A stretch of 41,915 bases of DNA from a virus, in IMG/VR virus record IMGVR_UViG_3300024518_003653, positions 1 to 41,915 of that record; one strand, 5' to 3'. The notes beneath the pieces are model-generated. The model was given only the letters and a program-made list of their open reading frames with translations. It had not been told where the DNA came from and did not search any database. The position numbers and the translations under genes are program-made. Positions 1-41,915 of this stretch are shown piece after piece (positions within the stretch are counted from its first letter, which is position 1; the number at the start of each line of letters is the position of its first letter).

Positions 1-151
1 GTTTTTCCTATTCCTGAATTCTTAAAAGAATGATAATTGAGTAATTACGCGATGGGCTTTGCCATCTTTAGCGTATTTGCGAATGTGGCATTGGGCGGCT
101 TTAGCGAAGCTGTTGACTGTTTTAGTTAGCCTGTTGAGTTTCTTATTGTCG
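1..151. repeat. Left copy of terminal redundancy
   Basis: These bases recur at 41765-41915 with only two differences, at 127 and 130 (41891 and 41894). The overlap means the contig closes on itself into a circle of about 41,764 bp, as for a circularly permuted or circular phage genome. Both differences fall in third codon positions of the gene at 22-498 and are synonymous (Leu and Arg codons). That fits two strain variants in a population better than sequencing error. Confidence 0.9.
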
Positions 152-498
152 TCGAAGATGACAACATGCGTAGCGTATTCTGTGGCGCTTTGCGTGTTGC
201 GGATTCCGGCTTTCTTGTCGAATTTGCCGTATTTGTTCTTGCTAATTACGGCATCGGGCTGATTCAAGTCCGACCAATTTGGAACAAAGCGAACTAATTG
301 AATGCTGTGCTTACGCGCCCATTTTCGAGCGGCGTTTTCGGCGCTGTTCTTAAGGTTGTTTGTATGAACGATTTGGATGTCTGCGGCCGAATTGTTCGTT
401 AAGAACAAGTGGTTTAGTTTTGCTTCTAAAACTTTGTAGCTTACGTTGCCAGCAACTAAGACGCGCACGGTTTTGGGTGTAAATTCATGTAATGACAT
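22..498 (-). CDS. SLOG/DUF2493-like nucleotide-binding fold protein
   Basis: A 158-residue protein. The N-terminus reads VRVLVAGNVSYKVLEAKLNHL, a Rossmann-like strand-loop-helix. A middle segment AENAARKWARKHSIQLVRF and a later KAGIRNTQSATEYATHVVIF follow the order seen in DUF2493/YspA-type SLOG proteins (strand, small-residue turn, helix with ARxWA, then GxxRN and a hydrophobic strand). SLOG domains bind nucleotides or nucleotide-derived ligands; the substrate here is unknown. A good ribosome-binding site (AGGAGA) lies just before the ATG. The stop codon falls inside the terminal redundancy, and on the closed circle the next gene is 41298-41762. The family call is by motif pattern only. Confidence 0.6.
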   Translation of the reverse strand: MSLHEFTPKTVRVLVAGNVSYKVLEAKLNHLFLTNNSAADIQIVHTNNLKNSAENAARKWARKHSIQLVRFVPNWSDLNQPDAVISKNKYGKFDKKAGIRNTQSATEYATHVVIFDDNKKLNRLTKTVNSFAKAAQCHIRKYAKDGKAHRVITQLSFF

Positions 499-596: not shown

Positions 597-635
597 CAAG
601 GAAAAAAAGTAATTTCCAGTTACTTTTTTTCCTTG
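597..635 (-). terminator. A/T-rich 15+ bp hairpin ending the minus-strand RNA
   Basis: A near-perfect palindrome (CAAGGAAAAAAAGTAA arm, about 7-base loop, matching arm) followed on the minus strand by GTTTTGTTTTTTT. It sits directly after the last GNRA hairpin of the minus-strand RNA and probably terminates it. Confidence 0.55.
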
Positions 636-972
636 AAATCCTTTCGGATTTTCAAGTGCTAGTACCTGTCTATGCCCGCCCGCGCCTTCGCGGGAGCTAC
701 TCTAACCAACTCGGTGCCTTATTTCAGACATCCAACCTCGGTTTCGCTTATAGATAGACTTTCAGCTAGCTACTACTGGGGCTGATTGTTCCCACGACTG
801 TGGGTCAGCTTGCTCTTATGGCTCTTTACGGCGGTCGTTCGCGTCGAGAGTATTAGCGGGTACAAAACCCCACCTTCGGGTCATCTTTTCACTGTATTCT
901 GCCCTATCTCTTATAGGTTGGAAGCCTTGCGGGTGACCATTTCCGTTACCGTAAATGCGTTTGTTTAATGTT
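631..972 (-). ncRNA. Large structured RNA, minus-strand copy
   Basis: No convincing protein frame. Read on the minus strand, this stretch aligns along its whole length with the plus strand of 1095-1476. Shared blocks include ATAAGAGATAGG, ATAAGCGAAACC, GAAATAAGG and GGGCA(A)TAGACAG. Hairpins differ by compensatory changes: CCCGCG-AAGG-CGCGGG at 679-694 corresponds to TCCGTG-AAGTG-CGCGGA in the other copy. A GNRA hairpin AAATCC-GAAA-GGATTT at 636-651 corresponds to AAATTC-GAGA-GGATTT. A promoter lies just upstream and a hairpin terminator follows. Size, ornateness and phage location recall the ROOL/GOLLD classes, but I cannot assign it to a family. Confidence 0.75.
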
Positions 973-979
973 CTGACTG

Positions 980-1009
980 ATTAAGGAGCTAAAATCTCGC
1001 GACTGTAAA
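980..1009 (-). promoter_or_regulatory. Sigma70-like promoter for the minus-strand RNA
   Basis: On the minus strand, TTTACA (1004-1009), an 18-base spacer, then CTTAAT (980-985). The -35 box lies in one arm of the central palindrome. The predicted start near 972 is about where homology with the plus-strand RNA begins. Confidence 0.55.
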
Positions 1010-1066
1010 GGGGTACTGTTAAATCTCGTCTTCGAGATTTAATAGTACATGCTTGCCCCTTTACAG
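1003..1066. promoter_or_regulatory. Central palindrome between divergent RNA promoters
   Basis: CTGTAAAGGGG at the left pairs with CCCCTTTACAG at the right. Inside is a strong hairpin (1013-1048), GTACTgTTAAATCTCG over a TCTT loop. The two outer arms carry the -35 boxes of both promoters, so a protein bound here, or a cruciform, could control both RNAs together. Confidence 0.6.
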
Positions 1067-1088
1067 AATAGCTAGTTTTCGCTTTAAT
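1060..1088 (+). promoter_or_regulatory. Sigma70-like promoter for the plus-strand RNA
   Basis: TTTACA (1060-1065), a 17-base spacer, TTTAAT (1083-1088). It mirrors the minus-strand promoter across the central palindrome. The predicted start near 1095 coincides with the beginning of homology between the two RNAs. Confidence 0.6.
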
Positions 1089-1094
1089 CAAGGA

Positions 1095-1476
1095 GGATAA
1101 ACGTTAAACAAAAACGCATTTTACGAGTAACGCGAAATCAGTCATCCGCAGCAGCTTACAACCCAATAAGAGATAGGAGCAGAAGGAAGTGATAAAGATT
1201 GACCCAGTAGGATGGGGTTGTAGCCCGATAATATCTCGATGACAGCGAACAGACCTGCCAGTAAAGGGCTGATAAGATGCAATGCTGACTCCACAGGTTG
1301 AATTGTGGGGACAATCTAGCCTTGTAGTAAGCTAGTGAAACGTCGTGTCGTTTATAAGCGAAACCAGAGGTGGATGTCCAGAAATAAGGTATTGAGTGGC
1401 TTTTAGAGTGGTTCCGTGAAGTGCGCGGAGTGGGCAATAGACAGAGTACAGCACGTAGAAAATTCGAGAGGATTTG
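1095..1476 (+). ncRNA. Large structured RNA, plus-strand copy
   Basis: Homologue of the RNA at 631-972 in the opposite orientation, and the only likely transcript on the plus strand here. Order and spacing of conserved single-stranded blocks are kept while helices vary: TCCGTG/CGCGGA (1413-1429), AAATTC-GAGA-GGATTT (1460-1475), and a GCTGA...CCACA/TGTGG...TAGC arm near 1280-1320. Open frames here are short and lack family resemblance. The transcript may continue through the hairpin cluster to a terminator at 1610-1643, giving about 550 nt. Confidence 0.75.
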
Positions 1477-1485
1477 CCCCCCCTC

Positions 1486-1727
1486 CCCTCGCGCTCGTCC
1501 ACCGGACGGGCTAACAAGGAGCGCGAGGGTTGTAATATGACAGGTGCGTCTGCACCTGCTTCCATGATAATTATCAATTATCGGCTCCTGGCCGATTCCT
1601 TAAAAAGCCACCATCGTCGGCGTTTGAGCGATGGTCGTTTTTTCGTGGCTCGATGCCACAAAAAACGACAAAGGCCAAGGGTTCTATCATCCCTTGGCCG
1701 AAAGTGGTAACTGCCTTAAGCAGTTAC
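1486..1727 (+). repeat. Cluster of consecutive strong stem-loops
   Basis: Palindromes follow one another: 1486-1529 (CCCTCGCGCTC / GAGCGCGAGGG with an inner GTCC..GGAC), 1541-1558 (CAGGTG..CACCTG), 1610-1635, 1636-1667 (14 bp arms including GTGGC/GCCAC), 1673-1699 (GGCCAAGGG/CCCTTGGCC) and 1707-1727 (GTAACTGC/GCAGTTAC). No gene is visible. They may be the 3' part of the plus-strand RNA, a series of terminators facing the operon at 1754, or DNA structures. Confidence 0.6.
1610..1643 (+). terminator. Intrinsic terminator of the plus-strand RNA
   Basis: ACCATCG / CGATGGT stem (7 bp) with a 12-base loop, then CG and six T residues (1638-1643) on the plus strand. Confidence 0.55.
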
Positions 1728-6418: not shown

Positions 6419-6688
6419 TTATTCCTTTGCGCTTGGCTCCTCGCTGATAGATGCTAGCAATTCTTTGAATCCTGGGGGGTTACCATCGGCATAACCTTGA
6501 GCCACATTGTAGCTGGCGAGAAGTCCTCCAATAACGCCTAACACTAAAGTGACGAATTCTAAAATCTGTTCTTGAGGCACATCTGGCAGAGCTAGATGGA
6601 TTAGATAGACGAGTAGGGGCGCGAGTGCGAGAATGCTTCCGGCTCCAACGGCTGTTACAGTGGCTTTTTTGCTTCCAAAGAGTTTCAT
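6419..6688 (-). CDS. Small membrane protein, holin-like (89 aa)
   Basis: Begins MKLFGSKKATVTAVGAGSIL with two hydrophobic segments (residues about 10-32 and 43-62) separated by a short DVPQEQ turn, and ends in a charged tail. Size, two membrane spans and a position at the end of the late region fit a phage holin, but sequence alone does not prove it. Its start overlaps the stop of the EAD7 gene by four bases (ATGA), so the two are translated together. No endolysin gene is adjacent. Confidence 0.55.
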   Translation of the reverse strand: MKLFGSKKATVTAVGAGSILALAPLLVYLIHLALPDVPQEQILEFVTLVLGVIGGLLASYNVAQGYADGNPPGFKELLASISEEPSAKE

Positions 6689-7191
6689 AATACTAATTCC
6701 TTTGTTTGTGGCAATTCAGGCCAATCATAATTAGGTCTGAGTTTCCGACAATAATCTAATAACTGATCTAAACTTTTCCGACGTTCAAAATATGTGATTA
6801 AACTACGGCTTTTATTTGAATGAGTCTCTCCAATTAAATCATCGTAATTTACATCTAAATCAAAACACAAACTGATTAATTCTTCTTCATCAAACGCATG
6901 TTCGATAAGAGGGAATATCGCAATACTCCATTCCCAGCGTTTGACTTTTTCCTCCTTTCGATTTGTGACGATTGCTTCTAATTCATCAAGTCGCTCCTTA
7001 AATCTTGTTAAAATGTCACGTATTTTTTGTGTCCGGTTTTTCTCCTTGCCGTTTGCTGATTCTGCGGCATTGTGAAGAGCAACCAACTCGCGTTTAACAA
7101 GGCCGATATGCTGCCTTAAAACTTGCACCAAAATGTCGTGTTTGCGCTCTAATCTGGTGATGCGAGTTTTTAGGGTGGGTTGTGATGCCAT
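6685..7191 (-). CDS. Effector-associated (EAD7-type, death-like) domain protein with N-terminal coiled coil (168 aa)
   Basis: Residues about 95-158 read FPLIEHAFDEEELISLCFDL, NYDDL, then YFERRKSLDQLLDYCRKLRP and NYDW. This is the hallmark of effector-associated domain 7: a helix with (E/D)EEL..LCFDL, a Y-D-L turn, and (L)..ERR..L..L......RP. In Chloroflexota and cyanobacteria these death-like adaptor domains join sensors to proteases, TIR or NTPase effectors in conflict systems. Here no effector is attached; residues 8-80 are a long coiled coil. The gene is coupled to the holin-like gene. A free-standing adaptor on a phage could act as a decoy that blocks host signalling; that is inference. 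Confidence 0.75.
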   Translation of the reverse strand: MASQPTLKTRITRLERKHDILVQVLRQHIGLVKRELVALHNAAESANGKEKNRTQKIRDILTRFKERLDELEAIVTNRKEEKVKRWEWSIAIFPLIEHAFDEEELISLCFDLDVNYDDLIGETHSNKSRSLITYFERRKSLDQLLDYCRKLRPNYDWPELPQTKELVL

Positions 7192-7223: not shown

Positions 7224-7272
7224 TGTAACAGATATTGCCTGAGCTGGTTTTTGCCGGCGATTATCTGTTACA
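7224..7272. repeat. TGTAAC/GTTACA intergenic element, copy F (short)
   Basis: TGTAACAGATATTGCC pairs with GGCGATTATCTGTTACA around a small central loop. It is followed by CATATTAGGCA, matching the CATGTTAGGCA found at the same place in the copy at 20327-20518. It lies between the genes starting at 7191 and ending at 7275. Confidence 0.65.
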
Positions 7273-8084: not shown

Positions 8085-9955
8085 ATTCTCATACCTCCGT
8101 GGGTGAGAGTAAATGTTGCTGTGCGCTTTTTCAACGAAAAAGTAGCAGAGCGTATTTTAAGAACGAACGTTGTAATTCGCTTCTTTAACACGAATGTCAT
8201 TGTCACTATCTGTTTTTCATCACCATATATAGTGATTAAATCCGCACCTGTTATTGCATCCGAAACTGCAAAAGCGGCTGTGATTTGTCCTATCAATTCA
8301 CTGGCGGCGGCGGCATCTGCAACGCTGATGCTTGCGCCGATAGAAGATATTTGATCTGTTCCTATGGCACTTTCAACTAACTGGAGCAAATTGTTAATTA
8401 ATTGAACGTCTGTTCCTGTGGCAGAATCGGAAACTGTCAGACTGACAGTAGCGGCTATCGTTGCGCTGCCTGTTCCTGTGTCGGAAACAGACTTTAGAAT
8501 GTCGCCAATGACATCGACGGCTTCTGTGCCACTTGCTGTTTCGCTCAATGTCAACGATACAGTGATTTGATTTATCGAATCGTTTCCGGCTCCGGCCTCG
8601 GTGACGGTGAATTGAACAGTTAGTCCGGCTAACTGGTCGGTTCCCGTGCCTGTTTCTTGTGGTGTCAATGACACAGTGATTTGATTTATCGAATCACTTG
8701 CCACGGCCGTTTCTGCGATAGTTGCTAAAACCTGGCTTAAAATGCTGTCCGCACCTGCTCCGGCTTCGGCAATTGTCAGCCCTGCGGCAATTGCGCCAGG
8801 GGTGTCCGCACCTGCTCCAGTTTCGGCAATTGTCAGTCCTACGCCAATTGCTTGAGCGTCTGTTCCTGCTCCGGCTTCGGCGAGTGGGGGGATTGTGTTT
8901 GCAATCGCGCCAGGAGCGTCTGCACCTGCTCCGGCTTCGGCAATTGTCAGCCCTGCGGCAATTGCGCCAGGGGTGTCTGCACCTGCTCCGGTTTCCGCAA
9001 TTGTCAGTCCTACGCCAATTGCTTGAGCGTCTGTTCCTGCTCCGGCTTCGGCGAGTGGGGGGATTGTGTTTGCAATCGCGCCAGGAGCGTCTGCTCCTGC
9101 TCCGGTTTCGCTAACTGTAGCATCTACAGTTAGCGCGGCTATGCTGCCTACGCCTCCTCCAATGTCGCTGACTGATTTAAAAACGTCTGACGAAAATCCA
9201 AAGATTCTTGGTTCTGGAATCAGTAGCGCGTCTGGTCCTTCTTTGTACAATGTTTCACATTGAGCATCCGACAGGCCAATATTGAATACTTGCGGATGAG
9301 CCATATAACCATCTAAATAATTGCTATTAGCTCCTCCAACAGTACCAAGCATCCGAATGGTGGCCGTGGAATCATTGACCAGACTACTGCCGTGTGACGC
9401 GGTTGCTATATTGCTGCCATCAATACAAATTCTCATTTCATTTGCTTGATTGGTATCGTACATGCCAATAAAATGATACCATTGTCCGGTTGATGCTGTG
9501 CCACCGACTAAGGTTGCTGTTCCGAAACTTTGCTCTTTCATTCGGATACGCCAATTGGTTCCATTTGTTCCTAGCATCCAAAAATGATCATTTGAAGCTG
9601 TTCCTGTCGCTTTTGCAATAATTCTTTGATCGCCAGAAGTTGTATTTAAATAAACCCAACACGAAATGGTGATGGATACTGTATCTGTGTTCCAATTCCC
9701 AACGTCAAAATAATGGCCTGTGCTGCCTACGCCATTAAAGGCCGCGCCTATGCCATTTCCGTATGCAATTCTGGTATCGTTATCTACCCATGTGCCATCT
9801 CTTCGATTATCAGACAGATCGATGACACGATTTCCATGTCCGAAAACGGCCGGATAATAGGCGAGTACATGATTTGCAAGCCAATGTGATTTATTTAAAA
9901 TTAGCCTGGGATATGTCCCAGGATATTTTAGAGTGTTGCCTCTATAGAAACCCAA
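8081..9955 (-). CDS. LamG/lectin-like adhesin with 19-residue repeats (624 aa)
   Basis: The start codon is TTG (9955) with AAGGA five bases upstream; no ATG occurs for over 100 codons. Residues about 25-245 form a concanavalin A/LamG-like domain (AFNGVGSTGHYFDVGNW; ISCWVYLN; GQWYHFIGMYD; GYMAHPQVFNIGLSDAQ). Then follow tandem 19-residue repeats of the type AETGAGADxxGAIxxGLTI; three units make a 57-residue (171-bp) block duplicated almost exactly at 8765-9110. More diverged repeats continue to about residue 575. The C-terminus repeats short strands (TTFVLK, ATFSLKK, ATFTL). Lectin plus long repeats suggests a receptor-binding fibre. Confidence 0.7.
   Translation of the reverse strand: MGFYRGNTLKYPGTYPRLILNKSHWLANHVLAYYPAVFGHGNRVIDLSDNRRDGTWVDNDTRIAYGNGIGAAFNGVGSTGHYFDVGNWNTDTVSITISCWVYLNTTSGDQRIIAKATGTASNDHFWMLGTNGTNWRIRMKEQSFGTATLVGGTASTGQWYHFIGMYDTNQANEMRICIDGSNIATASHGSSLVNDSTATIRMLGTVGGANSNYLDGYMAHPQVFNIGLSDAQCETLYKEGPDALLIPEPRIFGFSSDVFKSVSDIGGGVGSIAALTVDATVSETGAGADAPGAIANTIPPLAEAGAGTDAQAIGVGLTIAETGAGADTPGAIAAGLTIAEAGAGADAPGAIANTIPPLAEAGAGTDAQAIGVGLTIAETGAGADTPGAIAAGLTIAEAGAGADSILSQVLATIAETAVASDSINQITVSLTPQETGTGTDQLAGLTVQFTVTEAGAGNDSINQITVSLTLSETASGTEAVDVIGDILKSVSDTGTGSATIAATVSLTVSDSATGTDVQLINNLLQLVESAIGTDQISSIGASISVADAAAASELIGQITAAFAVSDAITGADLITIYGDEKQIVTMTFVLKKRITTFVLKIRSATFSLKKRTATFTLTHGGMRI
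8765..9110. repeat. Two near-identical 171-bp tandem repeats in the adhesin gene
   Basis: Landmark CGAGTGGGGGGATTGTG occurs at 8881 and 9052, exactly 171 bases apart (57 codons, three 19-residue units). Few substitutions separate the copies, so the duplication is recent or kept uniform. Confidence 0.75.
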
Positions 9956-11079: not shown

Positions 11080-11270
11080 TGTAACGTTTGCTGGTGGCCA
11101 GGCTGTCGGCCGAAGATCTGAAGGCGAATAAGTGTTACCAATTGCAGCGCAATTTGTAACATATTGTGGCCGGTGCAGCTGCGCCCGGACACGTATATGT
11201 TACAGAACATTGACCAGACGGCATTGGGGACTGGTCGCGGCCAAAGCAGAGGGGCGCTTGCAATGTTCTG
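11080..11270. repeat. Multi-hairpin intergenic element, copy B (with second module)
   Basis: First module 11080-11204: TGTAACG...GTTACC, a small AATTGC-AGC-GCAATT hairpin, then TGTAACATAT...ATATGTTACA. Second module 11203-11270: CAGAACATTG ... CAATGTTCTG enclosing GACCAG...CTGGTC (minus-strand reading). It fills the gap between the stop at 11282 and the ribosome-binding site of the gene starting at 11065. Confidence 0.75.
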
Positions 11271-11281
11271 GTTTTTAGTTG

Positions 11282-20326: not shown

Positions 20327-20518
20327 TGTAACGCTTATTGGCGGAGGCATCTTCGGCCGAAGATCCACCGGTTGATAACCGTTACGAATTACATTGTAAT
20401 TTGTAACATATTGCGGCTGGTGCAGCTGCGCCTGGCGCAATATCTGTTACATGTTAGGCATCGTTCAGACGGCATTGGGGACTGAACGCGGCGCGAAGCG
20501 GGGGTGCTTGCGATGCCT
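20327..20518. repeat. Multi-hairpin intergenic element, copy C (with second module)
   Basis: First module: TGTAACG.TTATTGG...CCGTTACG, the hairpin AATTAC-ATT-GTAATT, and TGTAACATATTGCG...CGCAATATCTGTTACA. Second module 20456-20518: AGGCATCG...CGATGCCT enclosing GTTCAG...CTGAAC. Compared with copies A and B, the outer stem is replaced by a different perfect stem while the loops are conserved. Confidence 0.75.
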
Positions 20519-20521
20519 TGC

Positions 20522-27192: not shown

Positions 27193-27939
<747 letters not shown>

Positions 27940-31144: not shown

Positions 31145-31269
31145 TGTAACGGCTGTCGATTGACCAATCGACGGCCGTGCCTCGCTCAGCGAGATTGCGT
31201 TACACAAATTGCCTGTTTGTGTAACACACTACTGCCGGCAGCAGCTCATCGATGGCACTATCTGTTACA
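31145..31269. repeat. Multi-hairpin intergenic element, copy E
   Basis: TGTAACGG...TTGCGTTACA with inner GTCGATTG/CAATCGAC and CTCGCT/AGCGAG hairpins, then CACAAA...TTTGTG, then TGTGTAACACAC...TATCTGTTACA. The minus-strand stop TAA of the gene at 31265 lies inside the last GTTACA. No second module. Confidence 0.7.
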
Positions 31270-34530: not shown

Positions 34531-34553
34531 TATCTTGTCCTTTTCTTTTCTTG

Positions 34554-34589
34554 GGTTGGGATCTATCCGTCTGCGGATGAATCCCAACC
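34554..34589. repeat. Paired intergenic hairpin, copy 1
   Basis: GGTTGGGAT...ATCCCAACC with an inner ATCCG/CGGAT. The homologue at 35075-35110 has a compensatory T-A to C-G change in the outer stem. Lies upstream of the ribosome-binding site of the gene starting at 34530. Confidence 0.65.
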
Positions 34590-34609
34590 AAAATAAATAT
34601 TATTGGTTC

Positions 34610-35059: not shown

Positions 35060-35074
35060 GATTTTCCTTTCCTG

Positions 35075-35110
35075 GGTCGGGATCCATCCGTCTGCGGATA
35101 AATCCCGACC
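35075..35110. repeat. Paired intergenic hairpin, copy 2
   Basis: GGTCGGGAT...ATCCCGACC with inner ATCCG/CGGAT; same loop and position as copy 1 at 34554-34589. Confidence 0.65.
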
Positions 35111-35122
35111 TAAAATATATTC

Positions 35123-38100
35123 TTATCCGAATAAACTAAGTTGAGTATTAGTCACCTCCGTCTTTTTGCGTCGTTTCTTTTTGGGAGGAATGCCTGTAGT
35201 AAGGCCAAAGACAAGTCGTGTTTGCCGCACTTTCGGCACGAAATCAATTGGCGGCATGTCCGGCTCTGGTTCTGGCTCCGGTTCTGGTTCTAGCTCCGGT
35301 TCCGGCTCCATGTCTTCCATCTCGTAACCAATGTAAGACTCATCGTTTGCGAATTCTTCGTTAGCTTTCTTGAACGCATCGGCCAAACTTTCCACGTCCG
35401 GCATTTCTGATTCTGCCACATCTGGATGATACTGTAATGCTAGAGCGCGATACAGTTTCTTTGCTTCTTTTTTGCTGGTACATTCAGCAAAATGTCCTGC
35501 AAAAATATCTTGTTGAACATCGGCATACTCATTGTTAATACGCTGCATCTTTTCCGTGATGTCTGGTGCTTCGGTTAACAGTCTTGCTAATGCTGATTCG
35601 ATGTCAGTTTGACTAAGGTCATCCAATTCGGCTAATGATTCGTCGGGAATGGTATCACCATTCACGCGCAAAGTTGCGGCTGCTTTAGCCGCAATGAGCA
35701 TTAGCGCATCTTGCTGCAAAGTATTCTCGTAACAATAATAGTAAACTTTGACTGGCTCTGTTTGCCCAATTCGCCAGGAGCGTCGGCTGGCCTGTAGAAC
35801 AGTGTAAATGCTGTACTCGGTTCCCATCCAAACGATAGTTGGAAAATCGAGTAAATCGAGTCCTGTCTCGACTTTGCGAGGATGGGTGATAAGGACGTTT
35901 ACGTCGTTATCAACCTGTTTCTTGATCCAGGCTTCGCGTCTGTCTGGTGCCACTTTGAGAACGGCAGCTTTCAGGCCAATATTCTCAATCATTTGCACCC
36001 ACTCGGCAGTAATGTCGAGTGTGCCAGTCTGCTGGCAAAGCAGGAGAACACGTCGTCCTGCGGCATGTTCTTCTGCAATCAAATCCAGGATAGCTTGCTC
36101 TTTTGGATATGGTGCTCCATATTCAAGTGCTTGCGCTGCGGCTATGATTCGGTCAGGGTCTTTCGGGTCTTTGACAATTCTGACTCGCCAAGGCGCGTCC
36201 GGCCATGTTAGTAAAGCCTGTAAGTAGGCTCCGAGCAACGATTTATCCTTTCGGATAAGTCGTTGTCTGAGTTCGTTTTTTAGACTGTTTGCAAACGAAC
36301 TGTAAACGGCTTCCATTTCTGGAGTCATGCCTACAGAAATGGGTATTTCTTCGTAAGTGGGAAGTGCAAATCCCATATCTCTGAGCGATACAAAGATGCC
36401 TCTGTTCAAGAGCCAATACATCATTGAAGGACTGCCTCCTGGCAGTTCTTTGACAGTAGTTCGGCTCTTGACATTTCCTGATCCACTATGTTCTTCTGAG
36501 AACGTAGTGGTTTCGACGCTTTGCAGAATCCCGTATTTAGCCACCCACTTTTTGACTTCTGTTTTCTGGTACTCTTCGGCCATTTGTGGAATCGCACGAT
36601 GGAACAAATGGAAAAGTGTTGACGCTTTTCCTCCGTAAATCGTGCCAGTTAAAAGGACTATTTTTCTGGCGGCGACACATAGACGATGAAACGCATAACC
36701 ACGATCTGAATCTGTTCCTTTGAATTGATGACACTCGTCAGCAATTAGCAAATCAACATACCGTTTGTACTTGCGATTAATGTAGGTAGCCAACGGGTAC
36801 CGTGCATTATTGCCTCGTTTGTCTCGAATATCTTGATAAAGAGGCGATTTGCATTTGTGGCATTTTACGCGATTGCTTTTCAAGTCTCCTGGTTGAAGCA
36901 ACGTGTCTCGCCAGTATTGTCTTGTGCCGCAATCTGGACAACGCAATGCTCGTGCATTCGTGTATTGGTTCCATTTTTCTGCCGGAATATGAGGCTTGCC
37001 ATTTGACGCAGGTGTTCCTAAATGGAATCGAGACAATCTTGTTGGCTTGATTCCTCCTTTCGGTGATGTTCGTTCAAATGTGGCCGAGCCACACCAATCT
37101 AGGGCATGTTCCCATCCTGACCCGCTTCGACTTTTGGTTTCCTTTAGGATACCAAAGATTATACCGTCTGCTTTCATCCAACGGTCTACGTCACTAATTG
37201 AATTTAGCTTGATAGTTTTGGCGACAGGCCATACATGCTTAATTTCTCGTATCCATTTATTTACGAGATGTGGTGGACATAGAACGAGAATGTGATTCAT
37301 TCGCTTGCCTGAACCGTGCAGTGCTGCGGCAATGCCTGGGCCAATCAAGGTCTTTCCGGTTCCCATCTCTCCCACGACGATAACCTCGCGGCGAGTCTTG
37401 AGTCGGGTGGCGGCTGCGGCTACAGCATGGGCTTGAGCAGGTAAGAGTCCTGGTTTCCCGACCAGGGGAATGAGTCTATGAGGATTGAGTTTTTTAATGG
37501 TTTTCCCAAACCCATTAAAATCAAAGTTGTATTTGGGTGGATAATCATCTTTGATTATTGCAGTCAAATGACCGATCCATTTTTCCAAAAATGGATGAAG
37601 TGCTGCTCCTTCATGCTGCGTGATTTTGCCCTCATTGTCTATGGTCGTGATGCGCGTATCCACCTGCTCAGTAGTTCGCTTAACTTCTGCACGGCCGTTT
37701 TCTCTTGGTTCCGTCGTTTGAGTGACAACGAACTTCTTGTGCGATTGACCTTTGATAAGCAGTCGGATATTGCCTTCTTGCAATATCTGATTGTTCAAAT
37801 GTCCGGCCGCGATGGTTCCGACCAAGTGGCCGATTTTCATCGGGGTCAATGGACGCAAAACTGAATGTATTTCAGTTGGATGAAGATGTGTCTGATAGGA
37901 ATCAGAGTTGACTACTCCATGTTTCCGTGCTTCGGCTAATGCATCCGCAGGATTGATAAACATGCCCTGAAATTTAAACGAGGAGTCTGGCACAATTGCC
38001 TTCTTAGGCAATTTGTACTCGTTTTCTCCCGTCTTTAATACTTCCCATGCTTCGCCTTTCTCTCCGATTTCGAGCAATAAATTCACTTTGTCAGCCGTTG

Positions 38101-38686
38101 GGATGCCTGACTTTTTGTTTCTTAGACCAAAGACAACAACCTGATTAAATTGCTCGTAAAATGGATCAGGAAAACGATACACTTGAATAGTATTGAACCA
38201 AGATGTCAGATAACGAACCGTTTTCTTTCTGGTCAGCATATGGTGTGGCACAACCCATACCAACAGTCCAAACTCTTGCAACCATTTGCGAGTGTGGACG
38301 AGCCAAGTATGCTCGGCTCGGCCGAGATGCTCGTCGAGCCACAGGTACGGCGGGTTCTCGTACAACATGCCAAACCCATCTGAGCTAACTGTGGCATTAA
38401 AATAAGATTCATTTAAAACGTGCGTTTTATTGTCGTTTTGCTCAGTTTCGTCCAGAAATTGAGCAAGCATCTTTTGTGTACTTTCGGCACGTTCTTTGTG
38501 AATCTCAATTGCATACGGGTTTCCTTGAATGCAATTTGCTAATCGGGTGATTGCTGCTCCACCACCAGCGCAAGGGTCTAGCATTCTGACTCCTGGCTGT
38601 GGCTGAACATGCGAGGCAATCAATTCTGTTATTTCCGGTGGAAGCGGGTAATATCCCGCTTTCTTTACATTTTGTAATCGTGACAT
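35123..38686 (-). CDS. Methyltransferase + SNF2-type helicase + J-domain fusion with clamp-binding tail (1187 aa)
   Basis: Residues 1-190 are an adenine-N6-type methyltransferase: MLDPCAGGG (35-43), IEIH (60-63), NPPY (111-114). Residues about 400-980 are a superfamily 2 ATPase: GEMGTGKT (439-446), DECH (650-653), LLTGTIYGG (679-686) and a late RRSWRIGQTEPVKVYYY (motif VI of SNF2 enzymes). A zinc ribbon (CPDC 583-586, CHKC 609-612) is inserted between Walker A and DECH. Residues about 1065-1115 form a J-domain (LYRALALQYHPDVA, HPD 1087-1089; FKKANEEFA). An EP-repeat linker and a basic patch lead to QLSLF (1182-1186), the canonical beta-clamp peptide. ATG follows TAGGAGA. It probably remodels replicating phage DNA with host clamp and DnaK. 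Confidence 0.85.
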   Translation of the reverse strand: MSRLQNVKKAGYYPLPPEITELIASHVQPQPGVRMLDPCAGGGAAITRLANCIQGNPYAIEIHKERAESTQKMLAQFLDETEQNDNKTHVLNESYFNATVSSDGFGMLYENPPYLWLDEHLGRAEHTWLVHTRKWLQEFGLLVWVVPHHMLTRKKTVRYLTSWFNTIQVYRFPDPFYEQFNQVVVFGLRNKKSGIPTADKVNLLLEIGEKGEAWEVLKTGENEYKLPKKAIVPDSSFKFQGMFINPADALAEARKHGVVNSDSYQTHLHPTEIHSVLRPLTPMKIGHLVGTIAAGHLNNQILQEGNIRLLIKGQSHKKFVVTQTTEPRENGRAEVKRTTEQVDTRITTIDNEGKITQHEGAALHPFLEKWIGHLTAIIKDDYPPKYNFDFNGFGKTIKKLNPHRLIPLVGKPGLLPAQAHAVAAAATRLKTRREVIVVGEMGTGKTLIGPGIAAALHGSGKRMNHILVLCPPHLVNKWIREIKHVWPVAKTIKLNSISDVDRWMKADGIIFGILKETKSRSGSGWEHALDWCGSATFERTSPKGGIKPTRLSRFHLGTPASNGKPHIPAEKWNQYTNARALRCPDCGTRQYWRDTLLQPGDLKSNRVKCHKCKSPLYQDIRDKRGNNARYPLATYINRKYKRYVDLLIADECHQFKGTDSDRGYAFHRLCVAARKIVLLTGTIYGGKASTLFHLFHRAIPQMAEEYQKTEVKKWVAKYGILQSVETTTFSEEHSGSGNVKSRTTVKELPGGSPSMMYWLLNRGIFVSLRDMGFALPTYEEIPISVGMTPEMEAVYSSFANSLKNELRQRLIRKDKSLLGAYLQALLTWPDAPWRVRIVKDPKDPDRIIAAAQALEYGAPYPKEQAILDLIAEEHAAGRRVLLLCQQTGTLDITAEWVQMIENIGLKAAVLKVAPDRREAWIKKQVDNDVNVLITHPRKVETGLDLLDFPTIVWMGTEYSIYTVLQASRRSWRIGQTEPVKVYYYCYENTLQQDALMLIAAKAAATLRVNGDTIPDESLAELDDLSQTDIESALARLLTEAPDITEKMQRINNEYADVQQDIFAGHFAECTSKKEAKKLYRALALQYHPDVAESEMPDVESLADAFKKANEEFANDESYIGYEMEDMEPEPELEPEPEPEPEPDMPPIDFVPKVRQTRLVFGLTTGIPPKKKRRKKTEVTNTQLSLFG

Positions 38687-39289: not shown

Positions 39290-39480
39290 TGTAACGTTTA
39301 CTGGTGGCCAGGTTGGCGGCCGAAGATCTGAAGGTGGATAACTGTTACCAATTGCATCGCAATTTGTAACATATTGCGGCCGGTGCAGCTGCTCCGGCCG
39401 CAGTATGTGTTACAGAACATTGTTCAGACGGCATTGGGGACTGAACGCGGCCAAAGCAGAGGGGCGCTTGCAATGTTCTG
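39290..39480. repeat. Multi-hairpin intergenic element, copy A (with second module)
   Basis: First module 39290-39414: TGTAACG...GTTACC, AATTGC-ATC-GCAATT, and TGTAACATATTGCGGCCGG...CCGGCCGCAGTATGTGTTACA. Second module 39413-39480: CAGAACATTG...CAATGTTCTG around GTTCAG...CTGAAC on the minus strand. Closely related to copy B at 11080-11270. Confidence 0.75.
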
Positions 39481-39536
39481 GCTCCTAAAAGCTAGAAATA
39501 AATGGAGAATACCCTGCTCCGAGGAGCCTGATTCTC

Positions 39537-41764: not shown

Positions 41765-41915
41765 GTTTTTCCTATTCCTGAATTCTTAAAAGAATGATAA
41801 TTGAGTAATTACGCGATGGGCTTTGCCATCTTTAGCGTATTTGCGAATGTGGCATTGGGCGGCTTTAGCGAAGCTGTTGACTGTTTTAGTCAGTCTGTTG
41901 AGTTTCTTATTGTCG
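41765..41915. repeat. Right copy of terminal redundancy
   Basis: Second copy of the first 151 bases, with T-to-C at 41891 and C-to-T at 41894 relative to the left copy. When the circle is closed, the gene at 22-498 lies directly upstream of the gene at 41298-41762, so the two form one transcription unit. Confidence 0.9.
41786..41915 (-). CDS. Partial second copy of the SLOG-like gene end
   Basis: The last 42 codons of the gene at 22-498 repeated at the contig end and cut by it. Its two differences are synonymous. It is not a separate gene. Confidence 0.85.
   Translation of the reverse strand, partial: DNKKLNRLTKTVNSFAKAAQCHIRKYAKDGKAHRVITQLSFF

Follow-up and report, generated by a model that had tools for sequence, protein, structure and literature searches.

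Why would a phage carry two diverged versions of one sequence, reading outward from a common centre in the one sizeable gap between its long genes, and what are these sequences? The window analysed here is the whole of a 41,915-nt virus record (IMG/VR IMGVR_UViG_3300024518_003653). Its ends repeat each other (positions 1-151 match 41765-41915 at 99%, with two mismatches), and we therefore treat it as a circularly mapping, essentially complete genome of ~41.76 kb; the record itself is classed as 'linear', although the terminal repeat implies a circular or terminally redundant complete genome. The long, main ORFs lie on the minus strand and run leftward from the pair, and the genes on this strand include a T4-like terminase, portal, capsid and tape measure. 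The pair itself sits inside the sole large intergenic gap between long ORFs (~500-1750). The phage also has an SSB gene and encodes an RNase H-like protein (27313-27930; PHROG E 8e-51), and its circular genome holds no tRNA genes. Comparison of terminase, helicase, capsid, portal or tape measure revealed no close phage relatives.

A mirror-image pair around a shared palindrome

The two copies, here called L (minus strand) and R (plus strand), are 77% identical over 337 nt by blastn (E 5.7e-41; minus 636-972 against plus 1100-1475). A preliminary description of this DNA had aligned minus 631-972 with plus 1095-1476 over their full length, and this homology is upheld by both blastn and nhmmer (Table 1). 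The blocks that it had singled out as conserved (ATAAGAGATAGG, TATAAGCGAAACC and GAAATAAGG) are found in both copies. Searching with a two-sequence nhmmer profile of L and R returned no third copy in the genome. On both sides the match begins at promoter-like sites and ends just past a 3' hairpin with a GNRA loop, the flanks beyond these hairpins being unrelated; by blastn and extended alignment, the homology is confined to promoter and transcript. L stands upstream of, and co-directional with, the entire leftward gene array, a feature that had been overlooked, and R is without a downstream gene on its own strand.

Table 1. Position and strand of the features in and around the L/R pair, in window coordinates.
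Feature	Position	Strand	Evidence
L copy, putative non-coding transcript of ~340-375 nt, homologous to R	636..972	-	blastn; nhmmer 971-635
R copy, putative non-coding transcript of ~380 nt up to the homology edge, perhaps ~545 nt up to the first clear plus-strand terminator	1100..1475	+	blastn; nhmmer 1101-1476
Central palindrome CTGTAAAGGGG...CCCCTTTACAG, inner arms TACTGTTAAATCTCG / CGAGATTTAATAGTA, 8-nt insertion on one side only; putative shared operator or DNA hairpin	1003..1066	.	DNA fold; arms read directly
R promoter-like TTTACA-N17-TTTAAT	1060..1088	+	exact pattern match
L promoter-like TTTACA-N18-CTTAAT	980..1009	-	sequence
Intrinsic-terminator-like hairpin and T tract after L	597..635	-	16 pairs, tail TTTTGTTTTT
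L 3' hairpin CTTGAAAATCC-GAAA-GGATTTCAAG	638..662	-	fold; in R as AAATTC-GAGA-GGATTT
R 3' hairpin with GAGA loop, counterpart of the 3' hairpin in L	1459..1475	+	folds
GC-rich hairpin CCCTCGCGCTC...GAGCGCGAGGG directly after R, without T tract	1484..1530	+	fold
Hairpin ACCATCG...CGATGGT, then T6 on the plus strand and a T run on the minus strand	1606..1648	.	sequence inspection; minus-strand version also from terminator scan
First gene past L in the downstream direction, for a 158-aa YspA-like protein of the SLOG family	22..498	-	Pfam PF10686, E 1.3e-7

Between the copies lies a near-perfect palindrome of 64 bp. Folded as DNA it reaches -21.2 kcal/mol (z -10.7, with 0 of 200 shuffles as strong), its arms match at 25 of 26 positions once the one-sided insertion is set aside, and CTGTAAAGGGG without mismatch is unique to it within the window. 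As had been proposed, both -35 boxes fall in the palindrome arms (TTTACA at minus 1009-1004 and plus 1060-1065). The proposal that each copy has a promoter of its own holds in part: the hexamers TTTAAT (plus 1083-1088) and CTTAAT (minus 985-980) are present at spacers of 17 and 18 nt, but both lack the usual A at position 2 and are unlisted by a consensus scanner. Judged from these motifs, promoter activity at the two putative sites is plausible. The terminators described on both sides are likewise only half confirmed: L is followed by a good hairpin (635-597, minus), whereas the strong GC hairpin at the end of R (~1484-1530) lacks a T tract, and the first plausible plus-strand terminator, recognized by inspection, lies at ~1606-1648. 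Situated between R and the point where the leftward genes end, this last hairpin probably terminates transcription in both directions. The central observation, that of diverged paralogues in divergent orientation around a common palindromic control region, is supported and largely real, with both the paralogy and the shared palindrome standing.

Coding potential, RNA structure and known families

Conserved protein frames, raised beforehand as one point that would speak against an RNA, were checked in L and R, and neither strand is convincingly coding. The sense frames hold many stops (longest open stretches of 52 codons in L and 32 codons in R), and comparison of the translated frames gave marginal similarity (best E about 3e-4 in a two-sequence comparison), some of which is expected at 77% DNA identity. 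With closed sense frames and mostly single-base indels between them, L and R are best read as non-coding, and protein coding was rejected on these grounds.

The preliminary description had further taken the copies for large structured RNAs. This claim is unsupported: covariation and fold signal are at chance, both in the two-sequence alignment and against simulated drift, in tests whose low power, resting as they do on two sequences, leaves room for structure. Taken alone, R folds no better than shuffles (z +0.80, or -0.04 with a 3' extension) and L modestly better (z -2.07). A consensus fold on the L/R sequence alignment stays at chance level (z -0.36, no two-sided changes), and a structure-aware alignment yields four two-sided pairs, against a mean of 2.95 in shuffled alignments taken through the same pipeline, of which 33 of 100 reach four. 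Some windows on the structure-aware alignment descend to z -4.4, but that alignment is itself optimised for structure, and the like-for-like control shows no full-length signal. Pairing in L is kept in R no better than under simulated random drift (104 of 200 simulations at or above the observed value; 26 of 200 in the reverse comparison). The two copies have three or four short hairpins in common (GGG/CCC, CCAC/GTGG, CCCGCG/CGCGGG and the 3' hairpin). The helices said to change in a compensatory way do so at one end pair, which is altered on both sides (C-G to U-A), the rest of the changes being one-sided (G-C to G-U), and the GAAA/GAGA swap that had been offered as helix support sits in the loop. 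Homology and hairpins in two copies are no proof of an ornate RNA.

Rfam gave no match at the gathering score over the whole window, and the covariance models of ROOL, GOLLD, OLE and raiA, which had been named as candidates, do not match at E<=10 in 1-2400 or 625-1660. A plant microRNA model reached E 1e-7 with a hit that spans the central palindrome, scores 35.6 bits against a gathering score of 500 and reflects the long inverted repeat; it was rejected as a link to a known family. No sequence relatives of L or R were found in INPHARED or PLSDB. Motif patterns, five of them run against IMG/VR and one against GTDB genomes, gave isolated motif matches only, and the long-range pattern matches from these scans lay in apparent coding sequence. 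Among 23 IMG/VR records, most with a distant relative of the 1187-aa methyltransferase-helicase of this phage, no L/R relative was present, and a set of 398 genomes from one phylum yielded one match only, 25 nt long and located within an ORF.

Indel-dominated divergence and competing readings of the locus

The unexpected part of the locus is its indel-dominated divergence. Aligned positions of L and R are ~89% identical, and about 41 indel events stand beside 36-41 substitutions, 29-30 of these events being single bases extra in R. RNase P RNA pairs from one bacterial order, aligned by the same method and 65-90% identical, show at most 12 indel events and a ratio of at most 0.25 (15 sequences, the pairs being non-independent). 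In divergence simulations, which recover fewer separate single-base gaps than observed and so give a rough null only, about a quarter of R's single-base insertions stand before a G (15 of 30 observed) and about 12 identity runs of at least 8 nt are kept between L and R (4 observed, a depletion). The 123-nt leader module of this phage is constant in length across its copies, which makes the indels specific to the L/R pair and led us to reject a genome-wide indel bias as their cause. Because they differ mainly by single-base indels, the two copies fit poorly with a conserved ornate fold, a consequence that had been missed.

The best explanation, to which we give a probability of about 0.45, is the inverted duplication of a phage non-coding RNA gene with its promoter, or the inverted acquisition of a second version, such that both copies diverge from one palindromic operator, the divergence of the arms perhaps being driven by selection that disfavours long perfect palindromes. 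It is consistent with what the sequence shows: two homologous units point outward from one palindrome, whose arms hold the matching promoter-like sites where they begin, and they have short blocks and a 3' hairpin in common before giving way to unrelated flanks. One regulator, or the DNA hairpin itself, would act on the palindrome and switch both transcripts together. The RNAs would in turn act through short conserved, mainly purine-rich blocks (e.g. AATAAGAGATAGG, TATAAGCGAAACC, GAAATAAGG) presented to a common partner, and not by way of a single rigid fold of the whole molecule. Bacteria do not stably maintain long perfect DNA palindromes. Since arms as long as these would form such an unstable palindrome, scattered single-base indels that break the arm-to-arm match may have been tolerated or selected, with the short central palindrome kept as a control element. 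Against this explanation stand the weak -10 boxes, the folding of R like its shuffles, the absence from all collections searched of a relative that would show either unit to be conserved, and the fact that palindrome avoidance, suggested here by sequence comparison, is gauged against simulations that are only a rough null. Among phage gene start regions no complementary mRNA target stands out, and antisense targeting of phage mRNAs was rejected, the pairing energies being as for shuffled start regions (mean -90.5 vs -89.6, best -114.4 vs -113.9).

A bolder form of the inverted duplication, which we hold to be possible but doubtful, would make the locus a previously unseen phage RNA gene with its mirror-image duplicate about a shared palindromic switch, the copies being functionally equivalent and forced apart by scattered single-base indels through which the locus escapes long-palindrome instability. 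If true, this would add a novel means by which genomes can maintain an inverted duplicate of an RNA gene. Should both transcripts be real, they would form an orphan phage RNA family whose two members diverge from, and are controlled by, a single palindromic element, and the natural indel-dominated divergence of mirror copies would make palindrome selection shaping duplicated loci directly testable.

Put and nut elements occur as homologous pairs in divergent early transcripts. L and R resemble HK022 putL/putR and lambda nutL/nutR in being homologous elements at the head of two putative divergent phage transcripts, and L could serve the main leftward transcript as a 5' leader, acting in cis as an antiterminator or attenuator in the manner of put or nut; R would then be its mirror copy in the rightward transcript. 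The surroundings of L agree with such a role: the main ORFs run leftward from it, it lies upstream of and co-directional with the gene at 22-498 (minus), two strong hairpins separate it from this gene (635-597 and, by inspection, about 593-555), and no obvious second promoter precedes the gene. A position between a putative early promoter and co-directional, terminator-guarded genes is true for L but untrue for R, where a cis antiterminator would serve nothing. The put and nut elements are moreover much shorter than L and R and have genes downstream of both, whereas here R has none and cis action of the copies is putative; there is also no Rfam match. We consider this leader role for the pair unlikely, although L may be a leader of the main leftward transcript in addition to, or instead of, an RNA gene, and HK022 put RNA sets the precedent of a nascent-RNA antiterminator (PMC9378689). 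A role at the DNA level, as a replication origin or something similar that depends on the central hairpin, with the divergent transcripts acting as primers or being incidental, appears quite unlikely. The strong hairpin, its location in the only wide intergenic gap of a circular genome that codes in one direction, and the presence of an RNase H-like protein and SSB argue for it; but the conserved blocks span the whole transcripts and not just the surroundings of the palindrome, and DnaA-box-like sites occur only at chance frequency, with none in the L/R region, so that a DnaA-box cluster was rejected. A hairpin telomere as in N15-like phages was rejected as well, no telomere resolvase being found (PF16684 unmatched at E<=10 across the genome). 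The RNase H-like gene and the transcripts at a compact control region recall the structured non-coding transcripts of ColE1-type RNA-primed origins. ColE1 RNA I and RNA II, however, overlap as antisense, whereas L and R are same-sense paralogues diverging from a palindrome.

An assembly artefact, in which one arm would be a fold-back copy of the other, left unpolished or joined as a chimera, might be suspected from a divergence that resembles raw long-read error (indels about as frequent as substitutions, no structural constraint) and is local to the pair. It is nevertheless very unlikely, with flanks that are wholly different, homology that stops at the 3' hairpin on both sides, a centre that matches at 25/26 positions against a difference of about 23% in the arms, intact long ORFs elsewhere, and few single-base gaps that are homopolymer changes (6 of 29). 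Highly improbable, finally, is the reading of L and R as members of a ROOL/GOLLD-like class of large ornate phage RNAs, in which both paralogues would assemble together into multimeric cages. Like these RNAs, which are phage- or prophage-encoded and non-coding, L and R would measure several hundred nt, but at about 340-380 nt they fall short of ROOL env-120 (659) and of many GOLLD (>800), they lack a covariance-model match (low E-values came only from implausible microRNA or sRNA models), and they have no demonstrable ornate structure and no structure above chance. ROOL and GOLLD are often close to tRNA islands (PMC12286853), whereas L and R have no tRNA neighbours in a phage without tRNA genes.

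Other repeats and genes of the phage

Several further features of the genome were observed. The 1187-aa protein encoded at 35123-38686 (minus) is a fusion of a DUF6094 methyltransferase-like region and a helicase; distant relatives of it occur at 23 IMG/VR loci and in phage records from the human gut. At 6685-7191 (minus) lies a gene for a phage protein with the C-terminal effector-associated domain EAD7 (Pfam E 3.8e-19), a domain linked to bacterial conflict systems. Tandem repeats of 57 and 171 nt (8730-9118) are found within the gene for a 624-aa LamG-domain protein, and a 53-nt hairpin repeat (34541-34593 and 35062-35114, 87%) marks the start of two adjacent genes.

The 123-nt module is present in five copies, all on the minus strand (39291-39413, 31146-31268, 27194-27316, 20328-20450 and 11081-11203), each composed of a 48-nt hairpin GTAACA...TGTTAC, a 17-nt spacer and a 58-nt hairpin GTAAC...GTTAC. 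The copies share 48-87% ungapped identity with length unchanged, and an ATG follows each within about 27 nt. A single hairpin of the same kind lies at 7225-7271. The module has no phage match, and the copy tested gave no plausible Rfam match; its appearance suggests an array of repeated regulatory leaders or operators. Three of the modules are preceded by an element of ~70 nt (minus strand; 39414-39481, 11204-11271 and 20451-20520), which carries compensatory changes around an invariant TCCCCAATGCCGT (TTCAG/CTGAA vs ACCAG/CTGGT) and an outer helix that reads GAACATTG/CAATGTTC vs AGGCATCG/CGATGCCT.
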